A stretch of 64,000 nucleotides of DNA from contig CAJNDS010000457.1 of the NCBI GenBank assembly GCA_905221605.1, positions 62,001 to 126,000 on the forward strand, given 5' to 3'. Below are positions 14,656-55,100 of the stretch, in pieces. The translations under genes and the position numbers were made by a program. Every line of letters starts with the position of its first letter. The first letter of the stretch is position 1. The stretch is from Symbiodinium natans. Its lineage: Eukaryota > Sar > Dinophyceae > Suessiales > Symbiodiniaceae. The notes below the pieces were generated by a model, which made no database searches, was not told the DNA's origin, and worked only from the letters and a program-made list of their open reading frames with translations.

Positions 14656-14749
14656 CCCTAAACCCTAAACCCTAAACCCCAAGCCCTAAACCCTAAACCC
14701 TAAACCCTAAACCCTAAACCCTAAACCCTAAACCCTAAACCCTAAACCC
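14656..14749 (+). repeat. Interstitial telomere array (CCCTAAA)
   Basis: About 13 units with one CCCCAAGC variant. It ends 20 nt before the exon at 14769. Confidence 0.95.
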
Positions 14750-14768
14750 CCCCAAAACTCCCTTGCAG

Positions 14769-14846
14769 CAGGCTGTGGCCTCGCAGCTCGGGGAAGCCTC
14801 TCGCTGGGCGCACGCACCCCGCAGCGTGCTGGAGAGGCATCTGGGC
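14769..14846 (+). CDS. Exon of unknown product (flanked by telomere arrays)
   Basis: A clean 78-nt exon. It follows the pyrimidine-rich acceptor CTCCCTTGCAG and ends before a consensus GTAAGT donor. It is open in phase 0 for 26 codons, starting QAVASQLGEASRW and ending LERHLG. A CCCTAAA array precedes it and a TTTAGGG array follows. The family is not recognised. It may be an upstream exon of the synthetase gene or of a separate gene. Confidence 0.6.
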
Positions 14847-14870
14847 GTAAGTGGTTAGGGTCTAGGGGGG

Positions 14871-14932
14871 TAGGGTTTAGGGTTTTAGGGTTTAGGGTTT
14901 AGGGTTAGGGTTTAGGGTGATCGGGTTTAGGG
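14871..14932 (+). repeat. Interstitial telomere array (TTTAGGG)
   Basis: About eight partly irregular units. It starts about 25 nt after the donor of the preceding exon. Confidence 0.93.
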
Positions 14933-14933
14933 T

Positions 14934-15040
14934 ATTTCCCAAAATAGGGGGTACCCCTTTCATATCCCAGATAGACGTAGAATTGAATCCCCTTGACTCG
15001 ACCCCCCACACTGGGTACCCTCATTTTCGGAATCCCCATA
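14934..15040. mobile_element. MITE-like element, family 2
   Basis: The left end TTTCCCAAAATAGGGGGTAC and the right end GGGTACCCTCATTTTCGGAA are imperfect inverted repeats, with an interior of about 65 bp. It abuts the telomere array. Confidence 0.6.
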
Positions 15041-15535
15041 TGGTTTAGCTATGAGAGAAGGTCATGAAAGTTGAAAGGTTTGAGAGTTTAAGTTAAGTTA
15101 CGGGCGTTGAGAGTGCCTGGTGCGGTATCAAGCAGCGCTTGCCAACAGTACCTATCTTCCATTTTTCCTCATCTGCTTCACAGCGGCATGTAGAAGCACC
15201 AAGTATTGTGTTGCAGATGCACGCGTGAATGCGTTGTGACTGCCCCCTACTATTGGAGCGATGTGGAAGACAGCAGTCAGCTATAAGTCATTTTGAGAGT
15301 TTGCTTTGCTGACTTTCTGTCTCTTCCTGAACCGCGTGACAGACAGTCAGACACTTACATGTTCGAGTCCTCGCACGTGAGTTTCCACTTTGCTGCTTCC
15401 GTCCAAATTGCACGTTCCCCTGTCGGATTGACCCCTACCCTGTTTGACGCATGTTTTCATGGTGAAATCACTGCAAGACTGCGTGACATGAGTGGTTCCT
15501 GCACACCTGATGGCAAACATCACCCTTGCCGACTC
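15041..15535. other. Unassigned DNA
   Basis: One plus-strand frame (15293-15664) runs into the inverted minisatellite and has no domain signature. Nothing else is seen. Confidence 0.35.
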
Positions 15536-15539
15536 GGAC

Positions 15540-16050
15540 ACAAGCCGCTGATGCTCATGATGCTCTCTTTGCTTTGGGGCAGCCCGCCTCCTCAAGGACA
15601 GTCACAGCTGATGCTCATGATGTTTGTTTTCGGGGGCCCGACTCCTGAAGGAAGTCGCCGCTGATGCTGATGATGCCTGGGCACCCGACTCCTCAAGGAC
15701 AGGCGCGGCTGATGCTCACAATGCTTTCTTTGGGGGCCTGCCTCCCGAAAGACCCTGGCAGCTGATGCTCGTGATGCTCGCTTTGGGTGTCGCTCATGAT
15801 GCTCTCTTCTGGGGCCCGCCTCCTAAGGACAGTCACAGCTCATGCTCGTGATGTTCGCCCGACTCCTGAAGGAAGTCGCAGCTGATGCTCATGATGCTCC
15901 CTAAGACACTGGCAGCTGATGCTCATGATGCTCGCTTTGGGTGTGCGATTCAAGCGACTGATGCTCATAATGCTCTCTTAGCCGTAGGGCCCGCCTCCTT
16001 CGGGACAGTCACAGCTGATGCTCATGATGTTAGCTTTGGGGGGCCGATTT
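15540..16050 (-). repeat. Minisatellite cluster 3, inverted orientation
   Basis: About ten monomers headed by CTGATGCTCATGATGC, the reverse complement of the monomer head in clusters 1 and 2. The spacer segments, such as CGGGGGCCCGACTCCTGAAG, correspond to the reverse complement of the GAGTCGGGCCCC spacer. Monomers are more diverged than in cluster 1. Confidence 0.88.
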
Positions 16051-16168
16051 CCGACTGCAGTGGCCAAAGCAAAGCAGCCCACTGCCCGCTGCTTTAGGTC
16101 CCGAGCAAGGGAAGCCCGTATTTGCTACGCAAGGCCTCGCGTTCCCGAACTCATACCCGCACAAACAC

Positions 16169-16216
16169 CCTAAACCCGAAACCCTAAACCCTAAAACAAA
16201 AACCTAAACCCTAAAC
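16169..16216 (+). repeat. Interstitial telomere array (CCCTAAA)
   Basis: About six imperfect units, ending a few bases before the acceptor ACGTCAG of the exon at 16222. Confidence 0.88.
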
Positions 16217-16221
16217 GTCAG

Positions 16222-16341
16222 GGGGCTGTTTGCGATAGCATGTCGAGTCGTCCGTGGATCGTCGGCAGCGCTACGGGTCCCGACGGATCTGAACTTGAGT
16301 CAGCAGTTCGTGCATTGCATTCTAGACCCTACTGACCAAAG
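16222..16341 (+). CDS. Exon of unknown product (flanked by telomere arrays)
   Basis: A 120-nt segment between acceptor GTCAG and donor AAAG|GTGTTG. One leading base completes a codon, then 38 open codons follow, reading GLFAIACRVV near the start and CILDPTDQ near the end. The other two frames contain stops. It is flanked by CCCTAAA upstream and TTTAGGG downstream. Its phase does not join directly to the exon at 14769, so an exon is missing or the two belong to different transcripts. The family is not recognised. Confidence 0.55.
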
Positions 16342-16364
16342 GTGTTGAGGTATTGGTTTGGGGT

Positions 16365-16440
16365 TCAGGGTTTAGCGTTTAGGGTTTAGGGTTTAGGGTT
16401 TAGCGTTTAGGGTTTAGGGTTTAGGGTTAGGGTTTAGGGT
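16365..16440 (+). repeat. Interstitial telomere array (TTTAGGG)
   Basis: About ten units including TTTAGCG variants. It starts about 25 nt after the exon donor at 16342. Confidence 0.93.
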
Positions 16441-16556
16441 AAACGCGGATCCACAACACACAGGCCCCTGTACCCAAATGTCGTAGTAAGGTTGACAAAC
16501 CGGCCTCCCTGGGTGCCTGCTGCCGCCTTCGTTTGGGAGCCAGGCTGCGAAGATGC

Positions 16557-16616
16557 AGGGTTTAGGGTTTAGGGTTTAGGGTTTAGGGTTTAGGGTTTAG
16601 GGTTTAGGGTTTAGGG
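16557..16616 (+). repeat. Interstitial telomere array (TTTAGGG)
   Basis: Eight perfect units. The 115 nt between this and the previous array could hold a further small exon, but no frame could be fixed. Confidence 0.95.
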
Positions 16617-16619
16617 TCT

Positions 16620-19100
16620 CGACAACATGCTTTCGCGAATGTTCCGTGTATATCCCTAAGGGTCCATGCACCCAAATGGGGGGCACTTGGGCCTGAAAAG
16701 TACTTCCTGTATAGAGTGCCAAAGAATGCAGGTGGGTTCGTGTCCTAGGAAAGTCTTTGCTGGCAACTGGGCAGTTTGAGAGCGACTTTGGGCCCCAGGT
16801 TTTCATCAAGAAGGAATGGAAGACCCCCACCAGACCCTTACATCCCACTTTTCCGAACTTTTTCGGGGGGCACTAAAGCTTGATGGGGGTTGGTCTGTGT
16901 CCTTGGCTAAATTGATAGGATGTTGATCTGACAATAACCTGTCCAAGAAGGTGACGAGGCACAAGAGGGTATAGATGAACTTCGCAAGTTGCAACCTCAA
17001 CTACACCCTGAATGACCCTGAATGGGCTCCTGTGCCATAGTTTCCAGCGCAGGAGAAGCGACCGCGCGCACCCCACATCAGCTGCAGCAGTGGTCAATGG
17101 CCTGTTGCCAAGAATGGTCGCATCAGCAGTGCCACTTGTGCTCAAGGTTTAAATGGCGCTTCTTGCTTCGAGGGCTGAAGTAGTTTGGCTATTTTTGCAC
17201 GCCTGGACGGCTTTCTCCTCTCTTTGTGTGTGTGTGTGTGTTTTGTTGGGCCGAGGTTCCTGTGGAGCCGTAGTAGTATATTATGTGCAGTGTATATGTG
17301 AGTGCGCCGTTTTGTGATCAAGAAGTAGGTGCCTGTCGGTAATGGAAGGTCTTTCAACGCAGTCTCGGAAAGTTGGTTAGGACTGAAACGCATGCACTGT
17401 ATCAAATATGCATGTGTGCCCTTGGCTTCGTGTCTCGGATGCTCTGCTTGCCACTGACTGCGTGGCATCCATCGGAGACACTATGTCAGCTATGGCTTCC
17501 GCTGCTCCCAAACTTCAACAATCCACAGGAACAAGCAAAACATCACGCACAACCGGCTGCGCGCCGCACGGTTGTACCTTTCAACACGTGTAGGGCAATG
17601 TAGGGCCATCATTGTCGCGCTTCCCCGGCATCATCTTGTCAAATCTGCTTGCACACATCGAGCAAGGTTGCGAAGACCTCGCCGGTGTGGAAGTTGCTCT
17701 CATTGCCACCAGGTGCTTGCTCTTGCGTCTTTGCGATGTGTTGCTTGAGATCAAAGTTGGTAGTTTGGGCACGTAGCGCCCAGAATAGGCCGTGTTTTGA
17801 CCTGCCGGCACCTCCCTGTACATGTAGTACTTTCCTGGAGCAATGGCCCATCGGCTCATCATCACTCAAAAGAGGCTTTAGCCCTAGTGACTTGTCCATC
17901 AGCTAGACACCACAACAGCTAGACACCACAAGATGGGTATAGGCTAACAAAGAAAACAGCTGCCTGCCAGGAGCTCATCACAGCTGGAGGCAGCATCTGC
18001 TCCTGTCGGGGTTGCGAACACTTTCAACAGTCAGCTGGATGCACCAGACAGGTTACGTCTCCGCGCAGGGCGAATGATAAGTCCAAAGTCTCATCTATAT
18101 ATGGTTGAACGCTGTGCGTTCTCATACCTCTGGTGTTCCCCACCCCTCCCCCCTGACATCCAACCATATAGATAATGTGTAGCTGCCGGCGGGCAGGCCT
18201 TGATCCTCAGTGGCCCGCACAGCGCGGCCGCTGGGCAGCTGCATGCACTCGTGAAGCGTGGCATACGGCGGCAGGCGCGGCAAAGAATCCGACTGAGTTT
18301 CGCAAGAGGGGCCTGCGGGGTTGACTCGAGTCTACGTGGACTCACGGGCAACTGGGGCTTGAGAATCAGGTCTTCGGGTGAGATGCCGGAAGAACACCCA
18401 TAGAGCCAAGATTTGCAAGGTTATAGGTCTCGGATATGGAAAATGAGTTTCAGATTCATATTTGCACCACATTTGAATGCTTGCAGAGGTTGTTGCCAAA
18501 CCTGAGCCTTTGGACCCTATGCTAAGTTCTAAAACCATACGATTCTTGCGAATGCGGTTTTGTTGATGCATGGATGCGTTGTGCCAAGAGCAATGCGAAA
18601 TCACAAGGGGCCGTACAGGTTGGTGTGGGGCTTTCGGGTTCAAGCACCCTGTCGCAGTGGCGACTCTACCGCTCTGTGATCTGGTCCTTGGAATTCTTGG
18701 AAAAGTGAGCAGGATAGTAGGTGGAGAAGCACCAGACTATCCTAATCGAACATCGTGGCCTCTGTCCGGTCAATGTATCCCTAAGATGACCTGCGCCAGG
18801 CAGCAGAGATGCCACGTGCCTTGGCAGCTGCGGCAGGATTTTGCACTCAAGCATTAGCAGCGGCGTCTCTGGGCATCGCACAATTCCCAAGCTGTCTCGT
18901 TGCATTTGGGTTCGGTCATCCGAGAGGTTGAGCATGCAAGGGCCGAAAAACAGAGTGTCGCACCTCCGCTCGGCCTAGGGATCTTTGCAGCCCAGTGCAA
19001 AACAAATAAGCTGAAGGGAAGCCTGAAGGACAAATCAGGACACCCAAAGTGCACATGATCCGCGACTACCCAAGGGAGGCCCCTACCACGCGAGACCAAC
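16620..19100. other. Unassigned DNA, probably intergenic or intronic
   Basis: Short open frames occur on both strands without recognisable domains (for example 17408-17593 plus and 17639-17899 minus). A (GT)n run lies at 17226-17242. Nothing further is supported. Confidence 0.4.
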
Positions 19101-19167
19101 CCAAAAACCGAACACCACCCAGATTCCCTTGCAGAGAGCGCGAAATGAAGGCACTGCCGAACTCATC

Positions 19168-19170
<3 letters not shown>

Positions 19171-19237
<67 letters not shown>

Positions 19238-19304
19238 TGGGGGCTTTCATTGCTGCTGCTATGGTGCTGGTGGTGCTGGTGGTGCTGGTGGTGCTGGTGG
19301 TGCG
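19171..19304 (+). repeat. CTG microsatellite and GGTGCT repeat
   Basis: About 21 CTG triplets (19171-19233) are followed by a GGTGCTGGT-type hexamer repeat (19259-19304). The ORFs through it give homopolymers of Leu or Cys. Confidence 0.95.
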
Positions 19305-19355
19305 CGGCGGCGCCGGTGCTGGCAGCTGTTAATTGTGCTGTGGCGTCTTCGCCTT

Positions 19356-19442
19356 CGCCTTCCTCTTCCTCTTCCTCTTCCTCTTCCTCTTCCTCTTCCT
19401 CTTCCTCTTCCTCTTCCTCTTCCTCTTCCTCTTCCTCTTCTT
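19356..19442 (+). repeat. CTTCCT hexanucleotide microsatellite
   Basis: About 14 tandem CTTCCT units. The ORFs through it read Leu-Phe, Leu-Pro or Ser runs. Confidence 0.95.
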
Positions 19443-19444
19443 CT

Positions 19445-20580
19445 TTATTCTGCTTCTACTTCTTGGTTTGCCATTGCTACCGTGGTTGGGTGGTCGTCAT
19501 CGTCAGAGTTGTCGTTGCCTGATGTCAGGTGCCCAAACAGCACGCGAGCTTCTGCAGAGCCACCGCGACACCCGCAGGACGGTGCAGGATCTTGGTGTGG
19601 CCGACTCCCCGCCTCTTTTGGGGGTTCCTAGGCCCTGGCTTTGATGAAGGTGTTGTTTTCTTTCTGTTTTGTTCTTTGAAGTGCGACGGCTAACAAGATT
19701 GCAACTATCCCTGCGCATTGCATCAGGCTCCTTCACAAGGACACTGCTCGGGTGTTTTGGACGTCCTGCTGCAGCAAGTTTGCCGGACACCCCACTCCAC
19801 AGCCATCATCGCTGAAGATAGGCAGACGCCGCTTGATGGCAAGAACAAGCGGCTCGGGAGCTTCCTTGTTTTTTCTCTTGCTTTCGGATACCTTTCATAG
19901 TTCTGTCGAATCAGCAGAACCTGTTTCGACTGTTGGTGTTGCTGCTGCTTATGTGCTAATTTGGAAGCTCGAGCACAAACCCCCAAAGCAGACAAGCCCG
20001 AAACCCCTGCCCCAAACATAGCCCGACTGGTAGAGAACAGTCTGCTGCTGACGCGCCTCAGTGTGTCCCTTTGGAAGGGCTGGCCTAGAGGGGTCGGGGA
20101 ATGGGAAGTCACTGCTGACAATGCAAATGCTCGCCCCCGATCTTGATTAGGAGAAACCATGTGTCCATGATGCTTACGCAGACAGGGTTCGAGCAGTCGA
20201 GCATCACAGAACGCACAGAAACAACAGTGCACACGTTCTTACGGTGCATCCTTTCGGGGTCGGTGATGCTCCCCGAGCCCCTGCTGCTGATCCTCATGAT
20301 GCTCACCTCTTTGCGGCTGCAGGCACTCCCTCTTTATAAAGTGCCACCTGTGCATTCTCCAAATGTAAACTGCAATTGCGATGGCGCTTCGCTTTCGGGT
20401 AGGGCCTCCCTTCCCGCGCGGGGGAGCCCCAGAAATCCACCCAAAAGCCATGCCTTGTTTGGGAGGGATACCATTATTGGTCGCAGCGCGCGATTTTGGT
20501 CCTACTGAACTGTTTATCCAGGCGGCTACCTTGCTCGCTTGGTGGTTGCAGTGTATTCTGTATATTGAAATCGTAGTCGA
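19445..20580. other. Unassigned DNA with a minisatellite relic
   Basis: A single diverged monomer of the minisatellite family, in inverted orientation (CTGCTGATCCTCATGATGCT), lies near 20281-20306. The overlapping open frames have no recognisable domains. Confidence 0.4.
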
Positions 20581-20586
20581 CTGCAG

Positions 20587-20698
20587 AGACTTCATTGTCA
20601 TTTTCCTTCACGAGACTACCGAGAATTTGGTAAGGAGCCTGCATGCTGAGCCGAAGCATACCCGACTCAGCTACGCGAATCTGGCAGCCTACGCAGCA
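20587..20698 (+). CDS. NRPS-like gene: candidate exon with adenylation motif A1
   Basis: The open frame contains LHETTENLVRSLH followed by HTRLSYANLAAYAA. The second part resembles motif A1 (LTYxEL) at the start of an AMP-binding adenylation domain, and the first part resembles the LHE..E..V segment that usually precedes it. If the exon ends at the GA donor GAGACC (20699), it joins in phase 0 to the exon at 24956, which supplies the expected next helix. A cryptic GTAAGG inside the segment (20630) is a competing donor. The first coding exon of the protein is not identified. Confidence 0.45.
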
Positions 20699-20769
20699 GA
20701 GACCTCCAACGAGCACCTTGTGCTGTTGGCTGAGGTTCCTTATAGGGTTGCTTTATGGGGGTAGTATTG

Positions 20770-21335
20770 GCGTGGAGGTGCAAGCAGTTTCAATGTGCTG
20801 AATTCTGGGGGACTCGGGGGGTGGTAAATTTCAGCTTGGATGTGAAGCTACGTTGAATGTGCTGTGAGTTCTGCAAGAACTACAACTTGAGTGGAAGGTG
20901 TGGGGCCCACGTTGTGAAAGCCAAGGCTCTTGGGCACCTGCCCTGCCCCGGTTGCCGTGGGAGTCTTAGCTCAGCGAGGAGCAGAGGCAGTGGTGGCGCT
21001 GGTCGCAGCTCTGTTGCTTGGAAGGCAGAAAGGCACTACAAAACACAAGACTATTCACTCATGAATGCTTTATAGTCCTTTCTCACAAGGGTTATTTTTC
21101 ATGTTTCTTAATGTTTCTGTTTGTCCTTGTGAGCGTTTATTGGGCCAGTCCTGGCGGATTTCTGCTTTCGCCCGGAGTTCATCAAAACCGGATACGCCGT
21201 TTGTGCCGGGAACACCTTGCCCACAGAGACTTCGTCAATGATCCGTCATGATCCTTCGCGGACAAACGACAGTGCGGAACATGTACATCGTGAGTTTTAT
21301 GAGCTACGAGGTGGAAGTGCCAGTAAGAGGGAAGG
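20770..21335. other. Unassigned DNA (probable intron)
   Basis: Small open frames without domain signature. It lies between the A1 exon candidate and the next exon at 24956, so it is read here as intron. Confidence 0.35.
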
Positions 21336-21339
21336 ACAC

Positions 21340-21439
21340 TTGGGATGTTCCTCCTTATACTAACAGTCCTTGATAGGGATCATCATAGGGGTACTAGAAC
21401 CCCTAGTAAGGACTGTGAGTATCAGGGGGGACATCCCAA
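21340..21439. mobile_element. MITE-like foldback element, family 1
   Basis: A 100-bp near-perfect palindrome. The left end is TTGGGATGTTCCTCCTTATA and the right end GGGGGGACATCCCAA, with inner arms CAGTCCTTGATAGGGATCAT and AGTAAGGACTG. Other copies lie at 25025, 25490 and 39795. Confidence 0.85.
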
Positions 21440-22625
21440 AGGACACCATCAAGGCAGTGGAGATGATTTCTTCTACTCCGACATGCCACAGAAAGAGACA
21501 ACTAGAAGAACAGCAAGCGCGGACAGAATGCGAACACGACCACCACGTTCGGCTCGTGTTAAAAAACCAAAATTGCCATGGGGGTATAAAAGTGGTGCTT
21601 GGAACCGCACGCAACCGGTAGGTGTGTGCCTGACACAGAAACCAACAGATCCTGCAACACACATGGTCGACTGAGCGTGCAAAAGGTTGGAGCATTTCAA
21701 TCTCATTCAATGTAGCACACATGCCTCCTACCTCCACGCTTCAGAGCTCAGACAGGCGAATGATTACTTACAAAGTCAAGTTCTTTCGCAACTCTCACAA
21801 GCATTTGCCAAAGTTGACAGCAAAAGCGGACAGTGCAATGTTGCACTTTAAGAAAGTGATAGAAAGTGTAAAAACACCGGTACCCTGTGCCTCCAAGGGC
21901 TTCGTGGGTACAGTTGAGCCTTGCTTCCCCTGAGAAGGGCTTTCCTCCCAGGAAGCCTATGCCCTGCTGAGCAAGTTTTAGCCAGTTCAAGAGGCAAAAA
22001 AAGGTATGACACAGCATGGAAGCTTCAGTTTTGCAGTTCGAAGCTCGTTGCAAGGTCTAGTACTGCTCAAGAGGGAGCATGCATGTGGGTGTTGTGTAAG
22101 GGCGTTTGTCTTGGGCCATTCGGCTACACTATACTCATGAGCAGCCTTGGGCTGACACTGCAGGTTTGCCTCCGCAAAGGCAGTGAGATGCTAAACCAGG
22201 GGCTCTCTTTCTATCGTTCACTCGAGAGTTCTAAATAGCATCAGAAGAACAGCGCCCACCAAAAAGCCAAGAGTAGTACCGCCGAAGCACAGCAGGTTAC
22301 ATGTTCCGCGCGTTCATCCCTATTGCCAATCCTATCGAGACCGCTACAGCAGTCATCCATTAGATTAGACTAACAGCAGCCAATAAACAGCTGGGGCAAG
22401 TGGGGGCAGGGGTACATATTGCTTAATATTGTATCGACAGACAGGTATATACTTAGCAGATGCAAATACGATGGCCTTACGAACCTCGATGCTCAGAGTG
22501 AATTTTCAGCCTCTAAGTCCTCACCAAACAAGGCTTTAGAAGATTCAGGGGGTAGTCCTGAGATGCCAGTTCTGTTGGAATCTGCAACCCCTATAAAGCA
22601 ATTTATTTCATCAATCTGGACCTAG
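21440..22625. other. Unassigned DNA (probable intron)
   Basis: No domain-bearing frame is seen. Several short ORFs on both strands look like chance openings. Confidence 0.35.
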
Positions 22626-22629
22626 CTGG

Positions 22630-22707
22630 AGGTTTGCGAAACTAGGGGACCCCCACTATAGACCCCCAAATAGTTGGATCCCTTCTCAAAAGGACCCGGA
22701 AACCCCA
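22630..22707. mobile_element. MITE-like element, family 2 (shortened)
   Basis: The left end reads GAGGTTTGCGAAACTAGGGG, followed by the family core ACCCCCAAATAGTTGGATCC. It terminates at GGACCCGGAAACCCC and lacks the usual GGTACC segment. Confidence 0.6.
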
Positions 22708-23299
22708 GCCGAGGCTGAGCGGTGCAGCGTACTGTCCCCTCGATCCATCGCAACCATTCGAGCGCGTGGCGAGGGCCTGAGTTGTCCACCGATCTTGCAA
22801 AGTCCTTGGGGACGAAATAAACCATAAAAGGGTTTATGGTTCAGCTACCTGCATAGGAGTATAGTAGCTTAGGGTATATGACCCCAATTTTGGGGTTCGT
22901 TTGGTCCCCAAGCGTGGTGCCACGCTCTGAGAAACTGTCGAACGCGGAGATGGCAAACCACTCCAGGGGAGGACGGTCTTCGTACATGTGTGCAATTCCT
23001 CAGTCGGGCTGCGCGCAGCCTTGAAAGGAGACACTTTGGGAAGCTTGAGCCCATATTCGGTTTTACGGCCTCAGATCCGGACAGGTCGAAGTTTTGGATC
23101 TGCTGGTGTTCTGGGCGGTCGAGGTACCACGGGGCCCTTTCTTTTGGGGGGTGTGCTTCTTGGCTTGGCTTTGGCTGATCTTGGCTCGGTAGGCTGTGGA
23201 GCCTTGGTCGGCTCGCCTCGGGGCCTTGGCCTGGGCCTGTTTGGCTCGACTTGGCTTTGGCTCGGCTTTGGCTTAGCTCGGCCTTGGCTTCGAGCATTG

Positions 23300-23484
23300 T
23301 TGCAATGGCGATGAAAGTCATACAAGCATTGTGTTTGCAAATGCCACCCCAACCCCCCCCGCCCCCCCCCCCCCCCACCCCCAACCCCACCCCCCCCCCC
23401 CCCCGCAAATTGTAATCATCGACAGTCGCACACTGGGGGCGCTGACAGTCATTCGAGCATTGTGTGATATTGTGTTTTGCAAAT

Positions 23485-23526
<42 letters not shown>

Positions 23527-23550
23527 GGGACGGGGGGTGGGGGTGGGGGT

Positions 23551-24955: not shown

Positions 24956-25016
24956 GCACTCGAGTTTGGGATCCAGGCTCTCAGACAGTGGGGTGCTGAC
25001 GGCCCTTTGAGAGCAT
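24956..25016 (+). CDS. NRPS-like gene: adenylation-domain exon between A1 and A2
   Basis: A 61-nt segment after acceptor ATTCAACTCAG, open in phase 0 and reading ALEFGIQALRQWGADGPLRA. It ends with one extra base before GTGGAT. The sequence resembles the helix after motif A1 in adenylation domains, where a LAxxLRxxGV segment is usual. The trailing T joins the CA that opens the next exon (25911) to give one Ser codon, so the phases agree. A CCCTAAA array lies upstream. Confidence 0.5.
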
Positions 25017-25699: not shown

Positions 25700-25780
25700 G
25701 CCAAGGTGATGGCTGTCGGAACTTGAGTTCATGTTGGGAAGTCGGGCTCTCTCGCCATTGCAGCTTCAGGTCTTGCGCGC

Positions 25781-25904
25781 CTAAACCCTAAACCCTAAAC
25801 CCTAAACCCTAAACCCTAAACCCCAAACCCTAAACCCTAAACCCTAAACCCTAAACCCTAAACCCCAAACCCTAAACCCTAAACCCTAAACCCTATCCCT
25901 AAAC
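25781..25904 (+). repeat. Interstitial telomere array (CCCTAAA)
   Basis: About 17 units with occasional CCCCAAA variants, ending at the acceptor CTAAACCTGCAG of the next exon. Confidence 0.95.
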
Positions 25905-32770: not shown

Positions 32771-32886
32771 ACCCTAAACCCTTAACCCTAAACCCTAAAC
32801 CCTAAACCCTATACCGTAAACCCTGAACCCTAAACCCTAAACCCTAAACCCTAAACCCCTAAACCCTAAACCCTAAACCCTAAACC
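32771..32886 (+). repeat. Interstitial telomere array (CCCTAAA)
   Basis: About 16 units with a few variants, ending 6 nt before the exon at 32893. Confidence 0.95.
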
Positions 32887-32892
32887 CAACAG

Positions 32893-33018: not shown

Positions 33019-33072
33019 GGGTTTAGGGTTTAGGGTTTAGGGTTTAGGGTTTAGGGTTTAGGGTTTAGGGTT
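33019..33072 (+). repeat. Interstitial telomere array (TTTAGGG)
   Basis: Seven to eight perfect units, starting 34 nt after the GC donor of the preceding exon. Confidence 0.95.
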
Positions 33073-42125: not shown

Positions 42126-42203
42126 GTGAAGGTTCGTGGGCATCGTCTTGAACTGGCTGAGATCGAGTCTGTTCTCAAAAGCGAGGCTCATGTCCCACAC
42201 GAC
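42126..42203 (+). CDS. NRPS-like gene: exon with motif A8
   Basis: After acceptor GAATGAAAG the frame reads VKVRGHRLELAEIESVLKSE, an almost exact A8 motif (VKVRGxRIELGEIE). The conserved Arg-Gly, Glu and Glu residues are all present. The 3' boundary is unclear (GC or GT donors near 42190-42203). TTTAGGG-like repeats begin about 40 nt downstream. Confidence 0.8.
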
Positions 42204-46216: not shown

Positions 46217-46230
46217 TAAAATGTATATGT

Positions 46231-46267
<37 letters not shown>

Positions 46268-46385: not shown

Positions 46386-46389
46386 TCGC

Positions 46390-47160: not shown

Positions 47161-47166
47161 TAAGCG

Positions 47167-47592
47167 ATGGCTTCGCTGGCCGGATATGGAGTGGATTGGA
47201 TGTCAGTGTTTGACGGGCATATATCATACATCATTCAGTTGAACACTAGGAGCAGAATCTTGCTATCACAGTTTGGCGGGAACGCGCTAAAGATTTACAG
47301 TGCGACCTTCGGTGGGATAGGCTGTTGTCCCCGTAGTGATGTCAACAACGGTGCCAAAAATGTTGTCAGGTTCTCCGCGAAGGGACTGACCGCCGCTGGG
47401 TCGCCTGTGGAAACTGTATCTTCCACCTTTTTTCTAGCTTTGGGGCTACGGGTGGATGTATGTGGAGATCGCTGTTGGGTGTATATTGGGTTCAGCTCCC
47501 TGAACACAACACCCGAGGTCACGAATACTGACGCTCACTGGCCTGTTTCTGGTTGGAGGGTAGGCAAAAGCTCAACCTCCCATTATTTCTAA
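47167..47592 (+). CDS. Hypothetical ORF, 141 codons
   Basis: An ATG-initiated plus-strand ORF (MASLAGYGVDW at the start, ending SSTSHYF). It is rich in Ser, Gly, Val and Thr in a beta-strand-like alternation. No domain is recognised. An FGGNALKIYS stretch superficially resembles a carrier-protein site, but the surroundings do not fit and there is a stop at the end. It lies between the A10 and carrier exons and may be a chance ORF or a nested gene. Confidence 0.25.
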   Translation: MASLAGYGVDWMSVFDGHISYIIQLNTRSRILLSQFGGNALKIYSATFGGIGCCPRSDVNNGAKNVVRFSAKGLTAAGSPVETVSSTFFLALGLRVDVCGDRCWVYIGFSSLNTTPEVTNTDAHWPVSGWRVGKSSTSHYF

Positions 47593-47814
47593 GTCAGACT
47601 CTGAGGTTTGCGAGACAGTCATCACCTTTGATCGATTCTGAATCTAGACATGCCCTCTAAACCCTGACACTGATAATCCAAATTGCAGCCTATTAAACCC
47701 CATTAAGCCCGGAACCTTTGAAATGTCGTCCGCTTCAAGCCGTTCAAGATCGACCCGCAACTCCCGAAACGCTAAGCCCTGTAAAACCCATTAGACCCTG
47801 CTAGGCCCTATGAA

Positions 47815-47990
47815 CCCCATAAACCCTACTAAACCCTACTAATCCTAAGCCTATTAAACCCTATAAACCTGCAAATTTCAACAACAGGCTTCATAACCCT
47901 ATAAACCCTAAGCCCTAAACCCCTAACCCTATAAACCCTAAACCCTTAACCCTAAACCCTAAACCCCTAAGCCTATTAAACTTTAGAAAC
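47815..47990 (+). repeat. Degenerate telomere array with CCCTATAAA variants
   Basis: Irregular CCCTATAAACCCTA and CCCTAAACCC units. The CCCTATAAA variant is the exact complement of the TTTATAGGG unit in the array just downstream of the next exon. Confidence 0.85.
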
Positions 47991-48012
47991 CTGCAAATGT
48001 CACCAAACAGGC

Positions 48013-48111
48013 TTCATCATGCGGCCACCCCGGGCACCCACCTCGAGGCAGCGGCAGAAAGGCCCCCTGGGGAACGGAAGAGATGCCAAGTGGGGTGTTC
48101 CGGAAGACATG
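48013..48111 (+). CDS. Possible exon between variant telomere arrays
   Basis: After acceptor ACCAAACAG the segment is open in at least two plus frames. One reads MRPPRAPTSRQRQKGPLGNG and then WGVPEDMR up to the repeat array. The position between A10 and the carrier domain would make it linker sequence of the synthetase. No motif is diagnostic. Confidence 0.4.
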
Positions 48112-48112
48112 C

Positions 48113-48425
48113 GAGGGTTTAGGGTTTATAGGGTTTATAGGGTTTATAGGGTTTATAGGGTTTATAGGGTTTATAGGGTTTATAGGGTTTATAGGGTTTA
48201 TAGGGTTTATAGGGTTTATAGGGTTTATGGGGTTTATAGGGTTTATGGGGTTTATGGGGTTTATAGGGTTTGTAGGTTTATAGGGTTTATAGGTTTTATA
48301 GGGTTTATAGGGTTTATAGGGTTTATAGGGTTTATAGGGTTTACAAGGTTTATAGGGTTTAGGCTTTAGGGTTTAGGGTTAGGGTTTAGGGTTTAGGGAT
48401 TGCGGTGTAGGGCTTAGGGTTTAGG
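48113..48425 (+). repeat. Telomere-variant array (TTTATAGGG nonamer)
   Basis: About 25 copies of GGGTTTATA or close variants (48120-48355), flanked by canonical TTTAGGG at both ends. It encodes GFI or RVY repeats only as an artefact. Confidence 0.95.
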
Positions 48426-48429
48426 ACCG

Positions 48430-50980
48430 GTTTGGGAAGCAGGTTAAGGGACATGGGGAAACCAGGAAGCAACACAAACTGGTGTACAGATCTTTGTCAT
48501 GAAGATCGACGTAAGCAAAGGTAGCGACGCCTTGATCACAAAGCGGAGACGCAAATCACAAAGCATGATGACAAAGCAAGCCCTGGGCCACGTTCACAGA
48601 ACAGCAGGCCTCTTTCGCGAAACCCTTTACGTTGTTATTCTTAGTTTGATTTTGAGGACGTTTATGTTCTGATCAAGGCCCCAGGGCCAGAACTCTCACT
48701 GTTTTGCGAGCAGGCCCCTGCTTATTACGATCTTGTCTGGAGATCTGGGCCTTAGCAATACGATCAACTTGCTGAGAGTGAGGCCAAAGAGCAATCCTTA
48801 CTGTTCGCTGAGCAGGCAAGGACCTGCATGTGGATTCTATTGCTTAACGAGGTCAACATTTTTACACAATGTTGAAAGGCGCGGCCCTACACCCAATCGC
48901 AGAGCCTAAATTCTGCAGGTTGGCAAGTCGTGCGTGCGGTGGTTGCTGGGGCTCTGGCTTGTCGCCTCCGTCCTTTCCGTATGCCGGGGCCTTGGATGGG
49001 AAGTGTCCTCCGTTGAACCTTTGAAAGTGCAACTTTCATTGCTTAGAATACACAGTGTGGTCTAGCTACCAGACCTTGCTGGAGCCAGAGCGCCCTAGCA
49101 CACAATGCAGCCCCTTCGCCTTTCCTGCACACTCACTAGGGCATTCTGGCACCTGCAAAAACCGACTTAACCCCTACACAATTCTTAACAGCCCCCCCCC
49201 CCCCCCGATTTCACCCACCCCAGGTGATAGGAGGGTACAAGACTCTCAGCACAACTGTCAGTCTTGCCGAGTCTTGCCCCCTCTCTCAGGATTTGCTGGC
49301 CCTTGGCGTGGATCTCATGGATCCGCCTCCTTGCACCTCTGGCCTCGATTGATGCAAGGGGGGTTGGGGGGGCCATCGCTCTAAATGAAAACTGAGTCTC
49401 CAAGTAACTGTCGTAGTTTGAAGTCTGGAGAGCAAAGCAGTCTGGACATGAAGAGGCAGTATGGACATGAAAAATAGACGATTAGGACGAGGGCGTGTGG
49501 TGTGGCTGTAGCCGCGTGGCTGTCGCCGAACTAGCACAACCAAGGCCCCCCGATCATCGGAAAGTCTCTTTGGGCAGGATTGCAGCTCGTGCCGATCCCA
49601 GTTGCACAGCCCCCTCCCCCAAACACCCCAAAACCATCACCCAAACCCTAAGCCCTGCACCCCCAGAACCTTAAATTATGAACCCTAAACCGGGGCCCTG
49701 ACCATGGCGGGAAATGCGGGTGTGCGCCATGGGGAGAGAATTGTTCTAGATTCTAGATTGTTAGACTGTCGGCCTTGAAAGTCGAAACCCCAACGTGCCT
49801 ACGCATTGCAATAAGCGAGGCGTGCCCCATGGCTTGCCAGCTTACTGGTGACAGCCCTCCAGCTGGGGCCTCGGATTCCGGCCGGATTGGGCACTTGCTG
49901 CACGTGTTTTGTGTCTCTCTGTGTGTGGGACAACCCATGTTCACGCGGGACTTTGTGCAAGCAATTTCTGCAGGGGGCAGAGCCCTGTCCTGGATGCCTG
50001 TGCCAACGAAGCTATTCCAAGACAGGGGACCGGGTGGTCTTTTTCAACCACCTGTACTTGAAAAAAGATGGCCTACACCAAATGCACCCAATAAAATTTT
50101 AAAAGGAGCCTGTCTGAATTGACATTGGGCTTGAAAAACAGGTTGGCAGATGTTGGCATCGCACGCCCCAAGCACCACACAGATGCAAAGAGGGGCGTCT
50201 CTGCTCAGATTTCAGGGCCTCGACGTGCTGAGGCCATGGCAGCTCATGCTGCTCTCTGCTGCCTTCGCGAGTTGGAAGGCCCTTTGTTTCGGCCACAAGC
50301 CCTAGAGGTCCTAGAAGGTTGGAAGGTTTAGTGCATGGGTGTTGTGTTGGTCTGAGTTCGCAGTTCAAAAGCTGCTGTACATGCGGATTTCAGGTGTGCT
50401 TGCCTTTAGAACCGGTTTGACATTTAGCAGAACTACGTTCTCGTAGTGGTGCGATAGAAACTGAAGGTGATTGTGCTCATCTGGGTGGCCAACATTTGAC
50501 CTAGGCCCACGGCAGATACCCCTGCTGCAAAATCTATCATCTCCACCTAGCTCACTAACCGCTAAACCGGATGCCGGCAAGTAGCGTTTTGAAGCAAGGT
50601 ATCTGGGTACGGTTTTAGGGCTCGCTCTAGCTTTCCCAGCTCGGCTTGCGGCGTGCGCTGACCACTCCAGTGCTGTGGTGGCTAGGCCTGTGCCCTGCCA
50701 GGAGTTGGACTCGAGTTGGGTTCTATAATATTCTGGCATCGGGGGTCGGGCATAGTTGCATAACGGTTGCTTGGTTGCTCCATTTGGGGGCATCCATGGT
50801 GCCTCTGACCAGGTCGTTAGCATGCTGGGCTAGGTTGCTGCAGCTTCAAAGTACCACCGCTACGACCTTCTACTACCTACCACTGCCTATTCCTACCCTT
50901 GGCTACTACTCCTACCGGCTGGTACTGGGGACGTCTGTTGTATCTTTTTTCATCATTCTGTGCGAAACAGGCATTTTCCT
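48430..50980. other. Intronic or unassigned DNA
   Basis: Contains a C tract at 49191-49206 and degenerate CCCTAAA fragments at 49640-49695. Frames at 49775-50122 and 50119-50331 are open but unrecognised. One contains SKTGDRVVF, a weak look-alike of motif A7. Confidence 0.35.
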
Positions 50981-50987
50981 TTGCGTG

Positions 50988-51133
50988 CTTCTTCTTCTTC
51001 TTCTTATTATTATTATTTTTCTTCTTGTTCTTGTTATTGTTCTTGTTCTTGTTCTTGTTCTTGTTCTTGTTCTTGTTCTTGTTCTTGTTCTTGTTCTTGT
51101 TCTTGTTCTTGTTCTTGTTCTTGTTCTTGTTCT
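50988..51133 (+). repeat. TTCTTG hexanucleotide microsatellite
   Basis: About 16 TTCTTG units preceded by TTC/TTA runs. The ORFs give Leu-Val, Phe-Leu or Ser-Cys runs. Confidence 0.95.
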
Positions 51134-51370
51134 GCTTCTTCAGGTTCTCAAAAAGCTGGTTCTTTCCCTCTCTCTGGCCCTGCCTCCTGCTGGTTTCAGT
51201 GGGGTGGGAGGAAGCGGGGGGCGTGGGGCAGAAAGGCCTGTGCAGGCATCTTGCGATTGCTATGCTCAGAGTTTCAGATTTCTCCTGGTCATCTCATCCG
51301 GGGGGATTCAGGGGGTACAGCCGAAGATGCTGCTGCGGGGATTGGTGGGATTTGACAAGCAAAAGCTCGA

Positions 51371-51391
51371 AACCCTAAACCCTCAACCCTG
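51371..51391 (+). repeat. Short interstitial telomere array (CCCTAAA)
   Basis: Three units, ten bases before the exon at 51404. Confidence 0.85.
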
Positions 51392-51403
51392 AATCGAACC
51401 CAG

Positions 51404-51536
51404 GAGCAACACCGACGGCCAACTCTGCCGGGAGCTGGAGTGGTACAGCCGCTAAGTCTGGACTTATGCATGCGAGTAATCACACAAGTGATTTTGACGC
51501 TACGCGACCCGCCTCGGCCCGGCCCAGCGCATCCGC
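51404..51536 (+). CDS. Probable synthetase linker exon between A10 and carrier
   Basis: After acceptor TCGAACCCAG the segment reads EQHRRPTLPGAGVVQPLSLD and stays open beyond a good GTGAGC donor at 51537, reaching a stop only at 51584. It is Pro/Arg-rich like a linker. CCCTAAA lies upstream and TTTAGGG downstream. On the minus strand the upstream edge contains GGTTCGATTC, like a tRNA-derived B box, so a SINE relic is an alternative. Confidence 0.45.
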
Positions 51537-51589
51537 GTGAGCATGGTGATTCCGCAGCGCCCAAGTCGTTGGACCCCAAGCAATAAGGG

Positions 51590-51693
51590 TTGGGTTTAGG
51601 GTTTAGGGTTCCGGGTTCATGGTTTGGGGTTTAGGGTTGAGGGTTAGTTTAGGATTGAGTTGGGGTTTAGGGTTTTTTTGGGTTTAGGGTTCA
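51590..51693 (+). repeat. Degenerate telomere array (TTTAGGG)
   Basis: Canonical units mixed with TTCATGG, TTTGGGG and TTGAGGG variants. Confidence 0.88.
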
Positions 51694-51739
51694 AGAGACG
51701 GTTCGGCTTGGATTGATCGTAGGGTTGAGCCAGGCCCCT

Positions 51740-52140
51740 GAGGGGGGGGTAGGGGGGGAATGAAGGGGGAGGGTTGAATTTGAGGGTCTTAGACTCTTAG
51801 ACTCTTCGGCTCCTTCGAAAAAGGTAGGGGGTGGGGGGGTGTGGGGGAGTTATGGGGGGCGGGGGAGTGGTGGGAGTGGGGGGAGAGGGGGGGAGGGGGG
51901 AGGGGGGAGTGGGGGGAGGGGGGAGCGGGGTAGGGGGGGGGGGGGGGGGGGGGGGGGGGGGAAAACGTCCGCTTGCGGACCCCGGTTTCCTAGCGGAGGC
52001 AAAAAAAACCGTGGCCGGAGGCATGTGGGGGTTTTTGGGGGCTGAGTGGGGTTGGGGGGAGTGGTTTGGGAGGCATGTGGGGGTTGGGTGGGAGATGGTG
52101 CGAGGAAAGGGGCGGGTGGGGGGGTGGGTGGGGGGGTCCG
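51740..52140 (+). repeat. G-rich tracts
   Basis: GGGGAGTGGGGG-type repeats (51826-51936), a run of about 34 Gs (51927-51961), and a second GGGTGGGGG region (52026-52140). The ORFs are Gly or Pro artefacts. Confidence 0.93.
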
Positions 52141-52141
52141 G

Positions 52142-52865
52142 GTGTCTATCAAGCCTTCATAGCCAGCGATCAGGATCACTTACACAGAGGACTACCGATG
52201 ACAGCGGAGATTGCAGATTGTGGGCCTCGGTGGCGTTCTTGGATATTTCTTGATCAGAGTTTTGAGTGGGCAGGTCACTGCGATGTGAGGCTACTCGAAG
52301 ACTATAAGCATACTACAAAAGCCACCGAGATCGGATGCGTACAGCGTCCGCAAAGCTTCCTTTCCATTTAGGGGCTGAGGTTCATGAGGAGGCTCGAAAC
52401 AACAGAGCGATGTAGATTCAAACATGTTTGAAACTGCCATACCATTCGTGAATCCGTCGAGAATGCAAGAAGGTAGTTAGGCGGGACACTGCAGCACCTG
52501 ACGGTTTGTTTGCAGGATGCTTGTTTAGAGATGCCAGTGGGACATTGAATGGAAGCAATAACTAAACACACAATGCTAGCTAGGTTGGTATGTGCATCCA
52601 CTTCGAGTGCGGGAGCTGATGTGCCAGGGCCGAAAGGTGTTTGACGGTTTTTGTGCTTGAGTGTTCGGTTCTGGGACATTGAGGTTCTTGGACTGGGGTG
52701 CGCACGTAGCGTGGGACTGGGAGCCCCCGTGTCAAGCCACTGCCATGTCCTAGCCAACTTCTTGGAGTAGGGAGGGATCGTCTTAAACCCTTTGCAACCT
52801 GCTCGGAAACAAAAGAGTCAGCAGCTCAGGTGCCAGGTGTCGTAAGCCCTGAATTCTGAAGCGGT
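52142..52865. other. Intronic or unassigned DNA
   Basis: No recognised feature. Confidence 0.35.
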
Positions 52866-52871
52866 TGAAAA

Positions 52872-52929
52872 ACCTAAACCCTAAACCCTAAACCCTACAA
52901 CCCTAAACCCTACAACCCTAAACCCTAAT
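52872..52929 (+). repeat. Interstitial telomere array (CCCTAAA)
   Basis: About seven units, some as CCCTACAA. It ends at CTAATTCCAG, which may be an acceptor for a short open segment (HLKPRVVSAVSS). Confidence 0.9.
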
Positions 52930-52999
52930 TCCAGCATCTGAAGCCCAGAGTTGTTAGTGCAGTTTCGAGTCGGCCTGTGCCTTCATCGCCCAGCCATTG

Positions 53000-53046
53000 A
53001 ACCCTAAACCCTAGACCCTAAACCTTTAACCCTAAACCCTAAAACC
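53000..53046 (+). repeat. Interstitial telomere array (CCCTAAA)
   Basis: About six units, 23 nt upstream of the exon at 53069. Confidence 0.92.
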
Positions 53047-53068
53047 CCACACAAGCCCTTCCCTTCAG

Positions 53069-53162
53069 GAGGCTGCTGGCAGAAGCCACCCTCCGCCTCT
53101 TGCGTGGCGACTTCTTCCTGGCCCGCGGCAAGCGCCCGGCGGACGCTTGGGGACGCGAATGG
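53069..53162 (+). CDS. Probable synthetase linker exon
   Basis: A 94-nt exon after the pyrimidine-rich acceptor CCCTTCCCTTCAG. One leading base, then LLAEATLRLLRGDFFLARGK and further open codons to GREW, ending at GTGGAA. Its GC-rich codons contrast with the surrounding introns. It probably encodes part of the segment between the adenylation and carrier domains. No motif is diagnostic. Confidence 0.55.
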
Positions 53163-53298
53163 GTGGAACCTACAGAGTTTCAACGATTTTGCATTTGTTT
53201 TCTCGGGGCCCCAAAGTGCCCAGATAGGGAAGTGTTTTATTTTAAGGCCCAAGTACTCCCTATTTAGCTACATGGACCCTTAGGGCAGCATCGGCAAT

Positions 53299-53366
53299 CC
53301 TAAACCCTAAACCCTAAACACTAAAACCCTAAACCCTAACCCTAAACCCTAAACCCTAAACCCTAA
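53299..53366 (+). repeat. Interstitial telomere array (CCCTAAA)
   Basis: About nine units immediately upstream of the exon candidate at 53374. Confidence 0.94.
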
Positions 53367-53373
53367 TGCTGAG

Positions 53374-53432
53374 GACTGGGATTGGGACGTTGCACCCCGC
53401 CGGCCGCGACGGCGGCCCCGGCTTCTGGGTGT
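53374..53432 (+). CDS. Possible synthetase linker exon
   Basis: After acceptor AATGCTGAG two plus frames are open (one reads TGIGTLHPAGRDGGPGFW, the other DWDWDVAPRRPRRR), and a GTGTCA donor follows. It is flanked by CCCTAAA and TTTAGGG arrays. The frame cannot be decided by phase alone. Confidence 0.45.
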
Positions 53433-53465
53433 CAAAACGCTTGGGTAGCCTATATCCCCCTCAGG

Positions 53466-53607
53466 GGTGGGGTTTAGGGTTTAGGGTTTAGGGTTTAGGG
53501 TTTAGGGTTTAGGGTTTAGGGTTTAGGGTTTAGGGTTTAGGGTTTAGGGTTTAGGGTTTAGGGTTTAGGGTTTAGGGTTTAGGGTTTAGGGTTTAGGGTT
53601 TAGGGTT
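53466..53607 (+). repeat. Interstitial telomere array (TTTAGGG)
   Basis: Twenty perfect units, among the longest uninterrupted arrays in the window. Confidence 0.97.
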
Positions 53608-53982
53608 ATTAAGGTTCTAAGGTGAGTCTAGTAGAGGTGCTCACGGGAAAAAGCTTGTGCCCGGGCTTTAGGTTTGGGCTTGGGGACCACGTTCACATGT
53701 TTCAAGCCACCCAAAATGCAGGTCCTGCCAGCAACTCTAGACTCTAGGGCCCACCAACCCCAAACCCACTGAGCACTGAGCATCCTACCTCTGCTCTGCG
53801 CAAGCTCGGTATTTCATACGAGCCGTACGAACCTTAAACGACGCGCACAGCACGTGCGCATGGACGATGCGTACGCGGAGCCGGAAACATCGAGACCTGC
53901 CATGTTTGCATTGTGCTTACTCGGACTCAGAAGCTGATGGCTTATCGGCCGACTTGCGGGGTGCATGTGAGGGTGTCTTTAC

Positions 53983-54080
53983 CCTAACCCTAAACCCTAA
54001 ACCCTAAACCCTAAACCCTAAACCCTAAACCCTAAACCCTAAACCCTAAACCCTAAACCCTAAACCCTAAACCCTAAACC
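53983..54080 (+). repeat. Interstitial telomere array (CCCTAAA)
   Basis: About 14 units, ending at the acceptor CCAAG of the next exon. Confidence 0.97.
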
Positions 54081-54083
54081 AAG

Positions 54084-54219
54084 GCTGGAGTACGTTTGGG
54101 TGGAGGCGACTGCGGCTGAGGCTGAGGTCACGGAGACCCCAGGGCGGTCGCGAGGTGATCTAACCCACTCACACCAGCAACTCCTGGAGCTGTTGGACCA
54201 GGAGCTGGGCCCAGGGAAT
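54084..54219 (+). CDS. NRPS-like gene: exon before and into the carrier domain
   Basis: A 136-nt exon. One base completes a codon, then LEYVWVEATAAEAEVTETPG and, nearer the end, HQQLLELLDQELGPGN follow. The last part resembles helix 1 of an acyl or peptidyl carrier domain. It ends in phase 0 at a GTCAGG donor, in register with the exon at 55004 that holds the carrier serine. CCCTAAA touches its left side and TTTAGGG begins four bases after its right side. Confidence 0.68.
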
Positions 54220-54222
54220 GTC

Positions 54223-54324
54223 AGGGTTTAGGGCTTAGGGGTTTAGGGTTTAGGGTTTAGGGTGTAGGGTTTAGGGTTTAGGGTTTAGGGTTTAGGGTTT
54301 AGGGTTTAGGGTTTAGGGTTTAGG
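54223..54324 (+). repeat. Interstitial telomere array (TTTAGGG)
   Basis: About 14 units. The donor of the preceding exon lies at its very edge. Confidence 0.96.
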
Positions 54325-54436
54325 CATGGGTGACTTCGGAGTAACGTCCGACCGGACAAGCTTCTCTTGATCATGCTCGCTTGATGCCTTTCACTGGCCA
54401 CCTGGGCCTCAAGTTCAAGATGCTGGTTTGCGCCCC

Positions 54437-54460
54437 CTAAACCCTAAACCCTAAACCCTC
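54437..54460 (+). repeat. Short interstitial telomere array (CCCTAAA)
   Basis: Three units. No clear exon follows. Confidence 0.85.
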
Positions 54461-54702
54461 AAGTTTCAAAACAGACGTTCACCAACTGTCCGAATCTGGG
54501 CCTCAAAGAAAGAAAGAAGGCTTTACTTCAACGCCCCGGCCTCAAGTTCAAGGCATGCTTCATATTTTTTGTGTTGGCTCCTGTGCCTGAAGGTGTGTCA
54601 CAAGATGGCGCAAGCTTTACGCTGTGTTGCCTTCAGCCGAGCCCGAAACAAGTTGCAAAAGTTTTCGTCTCCTCTTGGCGTGAGCCCGGGGTCTGAAGTT
54701 GA

Positions 54703-54759
54703 AGGTTTAGGGTTTAAGGGTTAAGGGTTCAGGGTTTAGGGTTATTAGGGTTTAGGGAA
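54703..54759 (+). repeat. Interstitial telomere array (TTTAGGG)
   Basis: Irregular units including TTAAGGG and TTATTAGGG. No clear exon precedes it. Confidence 0.88.
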
Positions 54760-54869
54760 CCCTGCGAACCGAATTACATCCGGGTCCCGAGTTGCACATG
54801 TTGGCTCTTACAATTGGCCCTTCACAACCTTTGCCTCGAATCTCTACTGCACCACTACACCATAGTCCT

Positions 54870-54998
54870 CCTAAACCCTAACCCTAAACCCTAAACCCTA
54901 AACCCTAAACCCTAAACCCTAAACCCTAAACCCTAAACCCTAAACCCTAAACCCTAAACCCTAAACCCTAAACCCTAAACCCTAAACCCTAAACCCTG
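54870..54998 (+). repeat. Interstitial telomere array (CCCTAAA)
   Basis: About 18 units, ending at the acceptor CTGACCAG of the carrier exon. Confidence 0.97.
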
Positions 54999-55003
54999 AC
55001 CAG

Positions 55004-55100
55004 GAAGCAGGAGCCCAACTTACACCGGACATGGCGCTGGCGTCTGCCTTCGACTCACTGAGGCTCACCTCCCTTGTGGGATCCTTGCGGCGCAAGCAGG
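55004..55100 (+). CDS. NRPS-like gene: carrier-domain exon with phosphopantetheine serine
   Basis: After acceptor CCTGACCAG the frame reads EAGAQLTPDMALASAF and then DSLRLTSLVGSLRRK. DSL is the carrier-protein signature (GxDSL). The Ser codon at 55055-55057 is the expected attachment site for 4'-phosphopantetheine, added by a PPTase. The Gly of the consensus is Ala-Phe here. The 3' boundary is not fixed. Donors near 55090-55105, including GC ones, would join it to the third carrier helix in the exon at 55208. Confidence 0.75.

Follow-up and report, generated by a model that had tools for sequence, protein, structure and literature searches.

The 64,000-nucleotide stretch analysed here, hereafter the window, spans bases 62001-126000 of contig C457 (CAJNDS010000457.1) of the dinoflagellate Symbiodinium natans and is interspersed with tandem arrays of the heptamer CCCTAAA and its reverse complement TTTAGGG. 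TTTAGGG is given as the dinoflagellate telomere unit in the accessible portions of two papers (PMC11453091, PMC11508785), and the arrays, which repeat this unit in tandem away from chromosome ends, are interstitial telomeric sequences (ITSs). It was in the window that they were first noticed to stand around exons in a fixed orientation, CCCTAAA before and TTTAGGG after. This polarity is real and genome-wide.

Exons were mapped by homology to P0002-P0013 (for the window gene at 54-57.5 kb), P0014 (CmdD of S. natans), P0015 (a relative's protein) and P0016 (AGMAT of Symbiodinium sp. KB8). The gene at window 54084-57526 is conserved; it appears condensation-like by our reading, and its relative P0012 has no Pfam match. 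Pieces resembling non-ribosomal peptide synthetases occur on contig C457 (window 19727-22771; C457:16111-44070), of which P0014 (GNAT plus Condensation) precedes the window, whereas P0015 matches the beginning of an AMP-binding domain inside it. The features concerned are as follows (window coordinates, strand in brackets).

14654-14749 (+): CCCTAAA array, 92 bp, ahead of a homology-supported exon (array scan)
14763-14837 (+): exon, P0015 residues 517-541 (56% identity, E 0.09, collinear with neighbouring exons)
14871-14918 (+): TTTAGGG array, 52 bp, past exon 14763-14837 (array scan)
16179-16216 (+): CCCTAAA array within an intron predicted from P0015; the exon called at 16222 is unsupported (array scan, P0015 alignment)
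16377-16440 (+): TTTAGGG array ending 40 bp ahead of an exon, and so contrary to the rule if the unsupported exon 16222 is not real
16480-16557 (+): exon, P0015 residues 538-563 (69% identity, E 6e-6)
16557-16617 (+): TTTAGGG array immediately past exon 16480-16557 (array scan, P0015 alignment)
19727-19816 (+): exon, P0015 residues 670-699, start of the AMP-binding domain; array-free within 100 bp
25780-25895 (+): CCCTAAA array, 114 bp, no confirmed exon adjoining (array scan)
32771-32887 (+): CCCTAAA array, 104 bp; with 33019-33072 it flanks a 131-bp segment whose codon scores are equal on both strands
33019-33072 (+): TTTAGGG array, 54 bp (array scan)
53470-53607 (+): TTTAGGG array, 138 bp, in the intron ahead of exon 54084 and past the unconfirmed exon 53374
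53986-54080 (+): CCCTAAA array, 95 bp, ending 4 nt ahead of exon 54084
54084-54220 (+): exon, translation resembling the N termini of P0002-P0008 (by eye)
54239-54324 (+): TTTAGGG array, 85 bp, past exon 54084-54220
54435-54459 (+): CCCTAAA array within intron 54221-54997, away from both ends
54704-54757 (+): TTTAGGG array within intron 54221-54997, away from both ends
54870-54997 (+): CCCTAAA array, 130 bp, reaching the acceptor of the next exon
54998-55111 (+): exon, P0008 residues 73-110 (68% identity)
55209-55985 (+): coding region of the next exon, its extent that of the P0008 alignment; array-free within 100 bp on both sides
57128-57526 (+): later exon of the same gene (54-57.5 kb), array-free within 100 bp (P0008 alignment)

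A preliminary description, made from the sequence alone, had proposed the polarity from ten called exon starts and eleven called exon ends. A CCCTAAA array does lie within 50 bp upstream of every one of the ten starts, and a TTTAGGG array within 102 bp downstream of 10 of the 11 ends; the end at 42203 has no array of at least 12 bp within 200 bp. The exon calls themselves fared less evenly. Homology backs the starts at 14769 (by the P0015 match at E 0.09, residues 517-541), 54084 (by likeness to the N termini of P0002-P0008, judged by eye and absent from the tblastn matches at E 0.01) and 55004 (by P0008), and most of the window's calls are without such support. The calls at 24956, 25911, 32893, 51404, 53069 and 53374 showed no homology to the proteins in hand, against which no one-by-one search was made, and an exon at 16222 is not expected, the P0015 alignment continuing from C457:76837 to C457:78480 without it. 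Among the arrays that had been set aside as lacking an exon, the one at 16557 directly adjoins the P0015-matched exon 16480-16557, and those at 54437 and 54703 both lie inside intron 54221-54997, away from either end.

Telomeric arrays are abundant well beyond the window. The word CCCTAAACCCTAAACCCTAAA, three copies of CCCTAAA, occurs 1,184,385 times on one strand and 1,185,204 times on the other of the 759.4-Mb genome (approximately 2.37 million in total), and its reversed control only 33 and 41 times on the two strands. The window holds 36 arrays of at least 12 bp, compared with 2 in 20 first-order Markov windows taken together, and Tandem Repeats Finder detected 176 telomeric arrays, covering 12.5 kb, in approximately 280 kb of sampled sequence.

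Polarity can be measured without exon calls. For this purpose a 214-kb set was used, consisting of the window and 16 stretches from its own contig and from eight places chosen without regard to arrays; stretches L039-L042, which were chosen for dense arrays, were excluded from it, but the P0016 gene used in the exon mapping below lies on L041. A codon model was trained on 5.3 kb of kinesin and window exons (including five exons of the window gene). At 20-95 bp past the 3' end of the C strand its score averaged over 94 flanks was 0.98, compared with -1.53 for the 92 flanks at the opposite end (Mann-Whitney U test, p 1e-6). In all sampled DNA the corresponding scores were 1.24, the highest among the offsets tried, and -1.60. 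Pairs of adjacent arrays 60-215 bp apart in the 214-kb set were mostly of the type that brackets an exon, C-strand then G-strand array (CG 22, GG 9, GC 6, CC 3), and 20 of the 34 CG gaps fall at 103-164 bp. Genome-wide, 14-base words spaced 115-145 bp apart were found 287,155 times as C-then-G and 83,392 times as G-then-C, and at 445-475 bp the two orders were near parity (G-to-C 135,775, C-to-G 127,461), so that a strong local reversal seen at 385-505 bp was not reproduced across the genome. A count at 235-265 bp (C-to-G 223,289) was dropped, being confounded by long arrays and lacking its reciprocal; such confounding partly touches the remaining spacings too, in both directions alike. By our count, 100 matches listed at 115-145 bp comprise 39 distinct pairs, from which a rough extrapolation, with background not subtracted, gives approximately 112,000 bracketed exons in the genome.

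The pattern might still be thought an assembly artefact, or chance arising from clustered arrays, as the contigs are those of a draft assembly and array density is strongly uneven (0 to 29 per 10-kb stretch). This is highly improbable: other short repeats have no polarity (codon score -0.08 vs -0.56, compared with 1.62 vs -1.20 for telomeric repeats), the polarity of the telomeric unit is tied genome-wide to exon-size spacing, and exon junctions of an annotated protein could be fitted around it.

Homology-mapped exons lead to the same result. Seventy were tabulated, two of which (C457:116084 and C457:60873) were placed by eye, with boundaries outside P0014 taken as alignment ends; the nearest arrays within 60 nt were concordant with the rule in 32 cases and discordant in 4. 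Because segments bracketed by arrays had served as queries, 8 seed exons were left out, and the remaining 62 gave 16 concordant against 4 discordant arrays within 60 nt (p 0.006), 10 against 1 within 30 nt, and 16 against 6 within 100 nt (p 0.026). Upstream, within 60 nt, 11 arrays were of the C strand and 2 of the G strand. Intronic arrays were also enriched beside these exons, with 17 of 33 within 60 nt where 6.7 were expected. Thus the proposal that introns tend to start with TTTAGGG and end with CCCTAAA exceeds chance by genome-wide pairs, codon scores and homology-mapped exons alike. Its framing as an orientation relative to transcription was mistaken: CCCTAAA-exon-TTTAGGG reads identically on the opposite strand, which means that the rule bears on the splice site that an array faces and not on the transcribed strand. 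A conforming intron starts with the G strand and ends with the C strand in either direction of transcription, and the test originally put forward, strand bias relative to transcription, is uninformative and was dropped on logic.

A detailed view comes from CmdD, for which 28 exons (residues 102-640) and 27 introns were mapped, the model starting past residues 1-101; two of its array-flanked exons were seeds. Its median internal exon is 51 nt, and no array overlaps a mapped exon. Dinoflagellate donor sites are weak and mostly non-GT, and the CmdD donors comprise 18 GC, 6 GA and 3 GT, the splice points having been picked by a script that required G[TCA]-AG and had between 2 and 10 solutions to choose from in each intron. 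Telomeric 9-mers in the last 150 nt of the introns are of the C strand in 187 cases and of the G strand in 5; in the first 150 nt they number G 39 and C 0, and between these zones C 38 and G 28. With telomeric words masked, the 24 introns of at least 140 nt retain a similar asymmetry, positions 3-30 containing G at 0.37 and C at 0.24, and the last 30 nt being weakly C-rich, with C at 0.32 and G at 0.23. GGGG in the masked introns occurs at 23.9 per kb in the first 80 nt compared with 8.5 mid-intron. Over the mapped genes together, with arrays masked, GGGTTT is the top hexamer after donors (17 of 57 flanks; 0.33 per kb mid-intron) and CCCAAA the leading hexamer upstream of exons (11 flanks). 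Rotations of the repeat other than GGGTTT are less strongly raised in CmdD (GGTTTA 1, GGGTTT 11), which suggests that GGGTTT there is more an independent motif than the remnant of decayed arrays. After the donors of the other genes, GGTTTA and TTAGGG are raised too.

One account of these data would be a purifying filter acting on random, functionless arrays, in which TTTAGGG, carrying an AG and a GT in each unit, is purged near acceptors and CCCTAAA, which carries neither, is tolerated. The acceptor side fits it well, both in the non-seed exons (C 11, G 2) and in the last 150 nt of the 27 CmdD introns (just 5 G-strand against 187 C-strand 9-mers), and human ITSs fit random placement in introns, as far as the accessible part of PMC7215372 reports. 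Tolerance does not account for the enrichment beside exons (17 of 33 arrays, 6.7 expected), nor for the preference for G arrays on the donor side suggested by CG 22 against CC 3 plus GG 9, and GGGTTT and G-runs mark donors even where there are no arrays. We regard the filter alone as rather unlikely.

The explanation we favour, to which we give an about even chance, is that telomeric repeats near exons are retained in whichever orientation is compatible with splicing. Many S. natans genes would have gained heptamer arrays in their introns by insertion or expansion, possibly through telomerase-linked break repair or slippage. The arrays that persist beside exons would be mainly those oriented so that their RNA is favourable to splicing, with the G-runs of UUUAGGG close behind the donor and the C-rich, AG-free CCCUAAA just ahead of the acceptor. 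Splicing would then be the filter on array orientation. The arrays may in addition act as intronic enhancers, through a G-run-binding factor downstream of the exon and a C-tract-binding factor or the supply of branch sites upstream, a role that would fit exons that are very short and whose donors are mostly GC or GA. In mammals, according to the portions of the sources available, G-runs enhance an exon from downstream and repress it from upstream (PMC10334793), and C-rich tracts ahead of acceptors are used by PCBPs and can drive exon use (PMC4797308). The two telomeric strands fit these positions, which favours splicing as the filter and, by this analogy, probably as a use of the arrays beyond filtering. 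The early suggestion that the repeats are functional or selected intron ends is upheld in its link to intron ends, the best-supported reading, whereas a function of the repeats is a prediction from sequence.

Several results weigh against this reading. On the donor side alone, non-seed exons have 5 G against 2 C arrays downstream, which is not significant. Window exons 14763 and 54084, listed as bracketed, had stood in a query as well, although other segments found their genes, and dropping both reduces the count to 12 against 4. Fourteen kinesin stretches with 30 matches hold only 3 arrays, and 23 kinesin exon flanks have no downstream G-run excess; the G-runs found within approximately 100 nt past the donor in CmdD, the position of the mammalian enhancers, are not seen in the kinesin set, so the rule is patchy by gene. 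CCC is nevertheless commoner upstream in the kinesin flanks (57 vs 28). Genome-wide and contrary to expectation, the acceptor motif TTGCAG is not commoner after C arrays (4,910) than after G arrays (5,638). The excess of CCAGG (28,346) over CCTGG (27,070) following C arrays is slight, too weak to use. Reverse counts were taken in these tests, because a single site apparently enters the forward counts through several array starts. Around 179 arrays, local profiles of splice words gave no clear signal.

Polarity could also arise without invoking splicing if introns were born with telomeric ends, either from an introner-like element or from a break in an exon that telomerase healed on both sides before the ends were joined, so that TTTAGGG...CCCTAAA remained. 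Dinoflagellate introners have terminal inverted repeats (PMC7789003, in the part accessible), and intron 54221-54997 bears arrays at both ends together with, by our reading, a repeat of GACCAGGA at both borders. As far as the available text of PMC7789003 (Amoebophrya) and the review PMC11453091 (other species) shows, introners further resemble the S. natans introns in having repeats at intron ends and non-canonical donors. Such a birth would mark both ends of an intron, yet S. natans arrays usually mark only one, and homology-mapped introns marked at both ends are no more frequent than expected (4 vs 3.9). Neither target-site duplications nor shared interiors find clear support: 13 of 45 G-to-C pairs, some of which may not be single introns, share at least 6 bp at their borders where 10.6 were expected, and of 49 interiors 32 are unmatched elsewhere in the approximately 280 kb sampled, the matches of the other 17 being mostly short or partial. 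A comparison of shared flanks was swamped by telomere-like variants and went unused. We consider this origin improbable.

A further proposal is that the arrays act in the RNA as a stem across the exon, the upstream C array pairing with the downstream G array so that the looped exon is defined or back-splicing promoted. All 7 folds computed show this pairing (-72 to -146 kcal/mol), as expected from the sequence, and the lengths of two arrays separated by an exon-size gap are correlated (rho 0.43, within-locus p 0.028). Lengths are likewise correlated in G-to-C pairs at distances of up to 600 bp (rho 0.41), and exons with an array on just one side are numerous. An apparent excess of two-sided exons (10 vs 4.2 expected) is not claimed, inflated as it is by seeding: 7 stood in gene-finding queries, C457:60873 was added because it lies between arrays and is P0015-like, and the remaining 2 stood in a query whose other segments found their genes; without seeds there are 2 exons. 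The stem is less probable still.

The distribution of the arrays is accompanied by a few further observations. On C1, a 3.4-Mb contig, the first forward-strand CCCTAAA x3 word among the matches listed is at 235,081, and on that strand the words are dense thereafter; two C1 stretches at 100-120 kb have 0 arrays. The array-rich stretches L019, L020 and L039-L042 have CpG observed/expected ratios of 0.49-0.62, the remaining stretches 0.65-0.80, and L024 1.04; the latter (C400:100001-110000; GC 34.6%, array-free) is probably a contaminant contig. Window 14919-16178 gave 116 BLAST pieces elsewhere, four of which map to window 2.6-6.8 kb, and is a repeat rich in GCTGATGCTCATGATG. A run of 35 identical bases stands a few bases past a TTTAGGG array at two sites (window 51697-51731 and L015 5617-5651).

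Several known systems invite comparison. Fish introns with complementary (AC)n-(GT)n ends are reportedly spliced with a reduced need for U2AF2; they share with S. natans complementary repeats at intron ends, but S. natans introns are seldom marked at both. Mammalian short ITSs are likewise short tandem telomeric arrays inside chromosomes, and the accessible part of PMC7215372 reports none in human exons, as here none lies in the mapped CmdD exons; by the same source human ITSs fit random placement, with 31% in introns, whereas S. natans has more than 2 million 21-base words, enriched and polarised near exons. Intronic enhancers bound by heterogeneous nuclear ribonucleoproteins (hnRNP) H/F place G-runs just downstream of an exon (PMC10334793, in part), and the polypyrimidine tracts bound by alpha-CP/PCBP place a C-rich tract just ahead of the acceptor (PMC4797308, in part); in S. 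natans the G-runs are a tandem telomeric unit and the tract is its C strand, both known here as sequence features. A literature search of titles and abstract openings, in which most subscription papers fell outside coverage, returned no report of telomeric arrays at intron ends, so that as far as searched the exon-flanking polarity is unreported.

Repeats of fixed polarity beside exons offer a directly testable candidate cis-signal for the recognition of very short dinoflagellate exons, and the arrays can serve as an annotation marker for exons that are hard to predict. The debris of break repair may here have turned into gene structure. In a bolder form, which we hold to be somewhat doubtful, the telomere repeat would mark exons throughout the genome, and the strands of a single heptamer would act as opposite splicing signals flanking tens of thousands of exons; telomerase, writing its template at breaks, would supply ready-made intron ends and so tie the chemistry of chromosome ends to the structure of genes.

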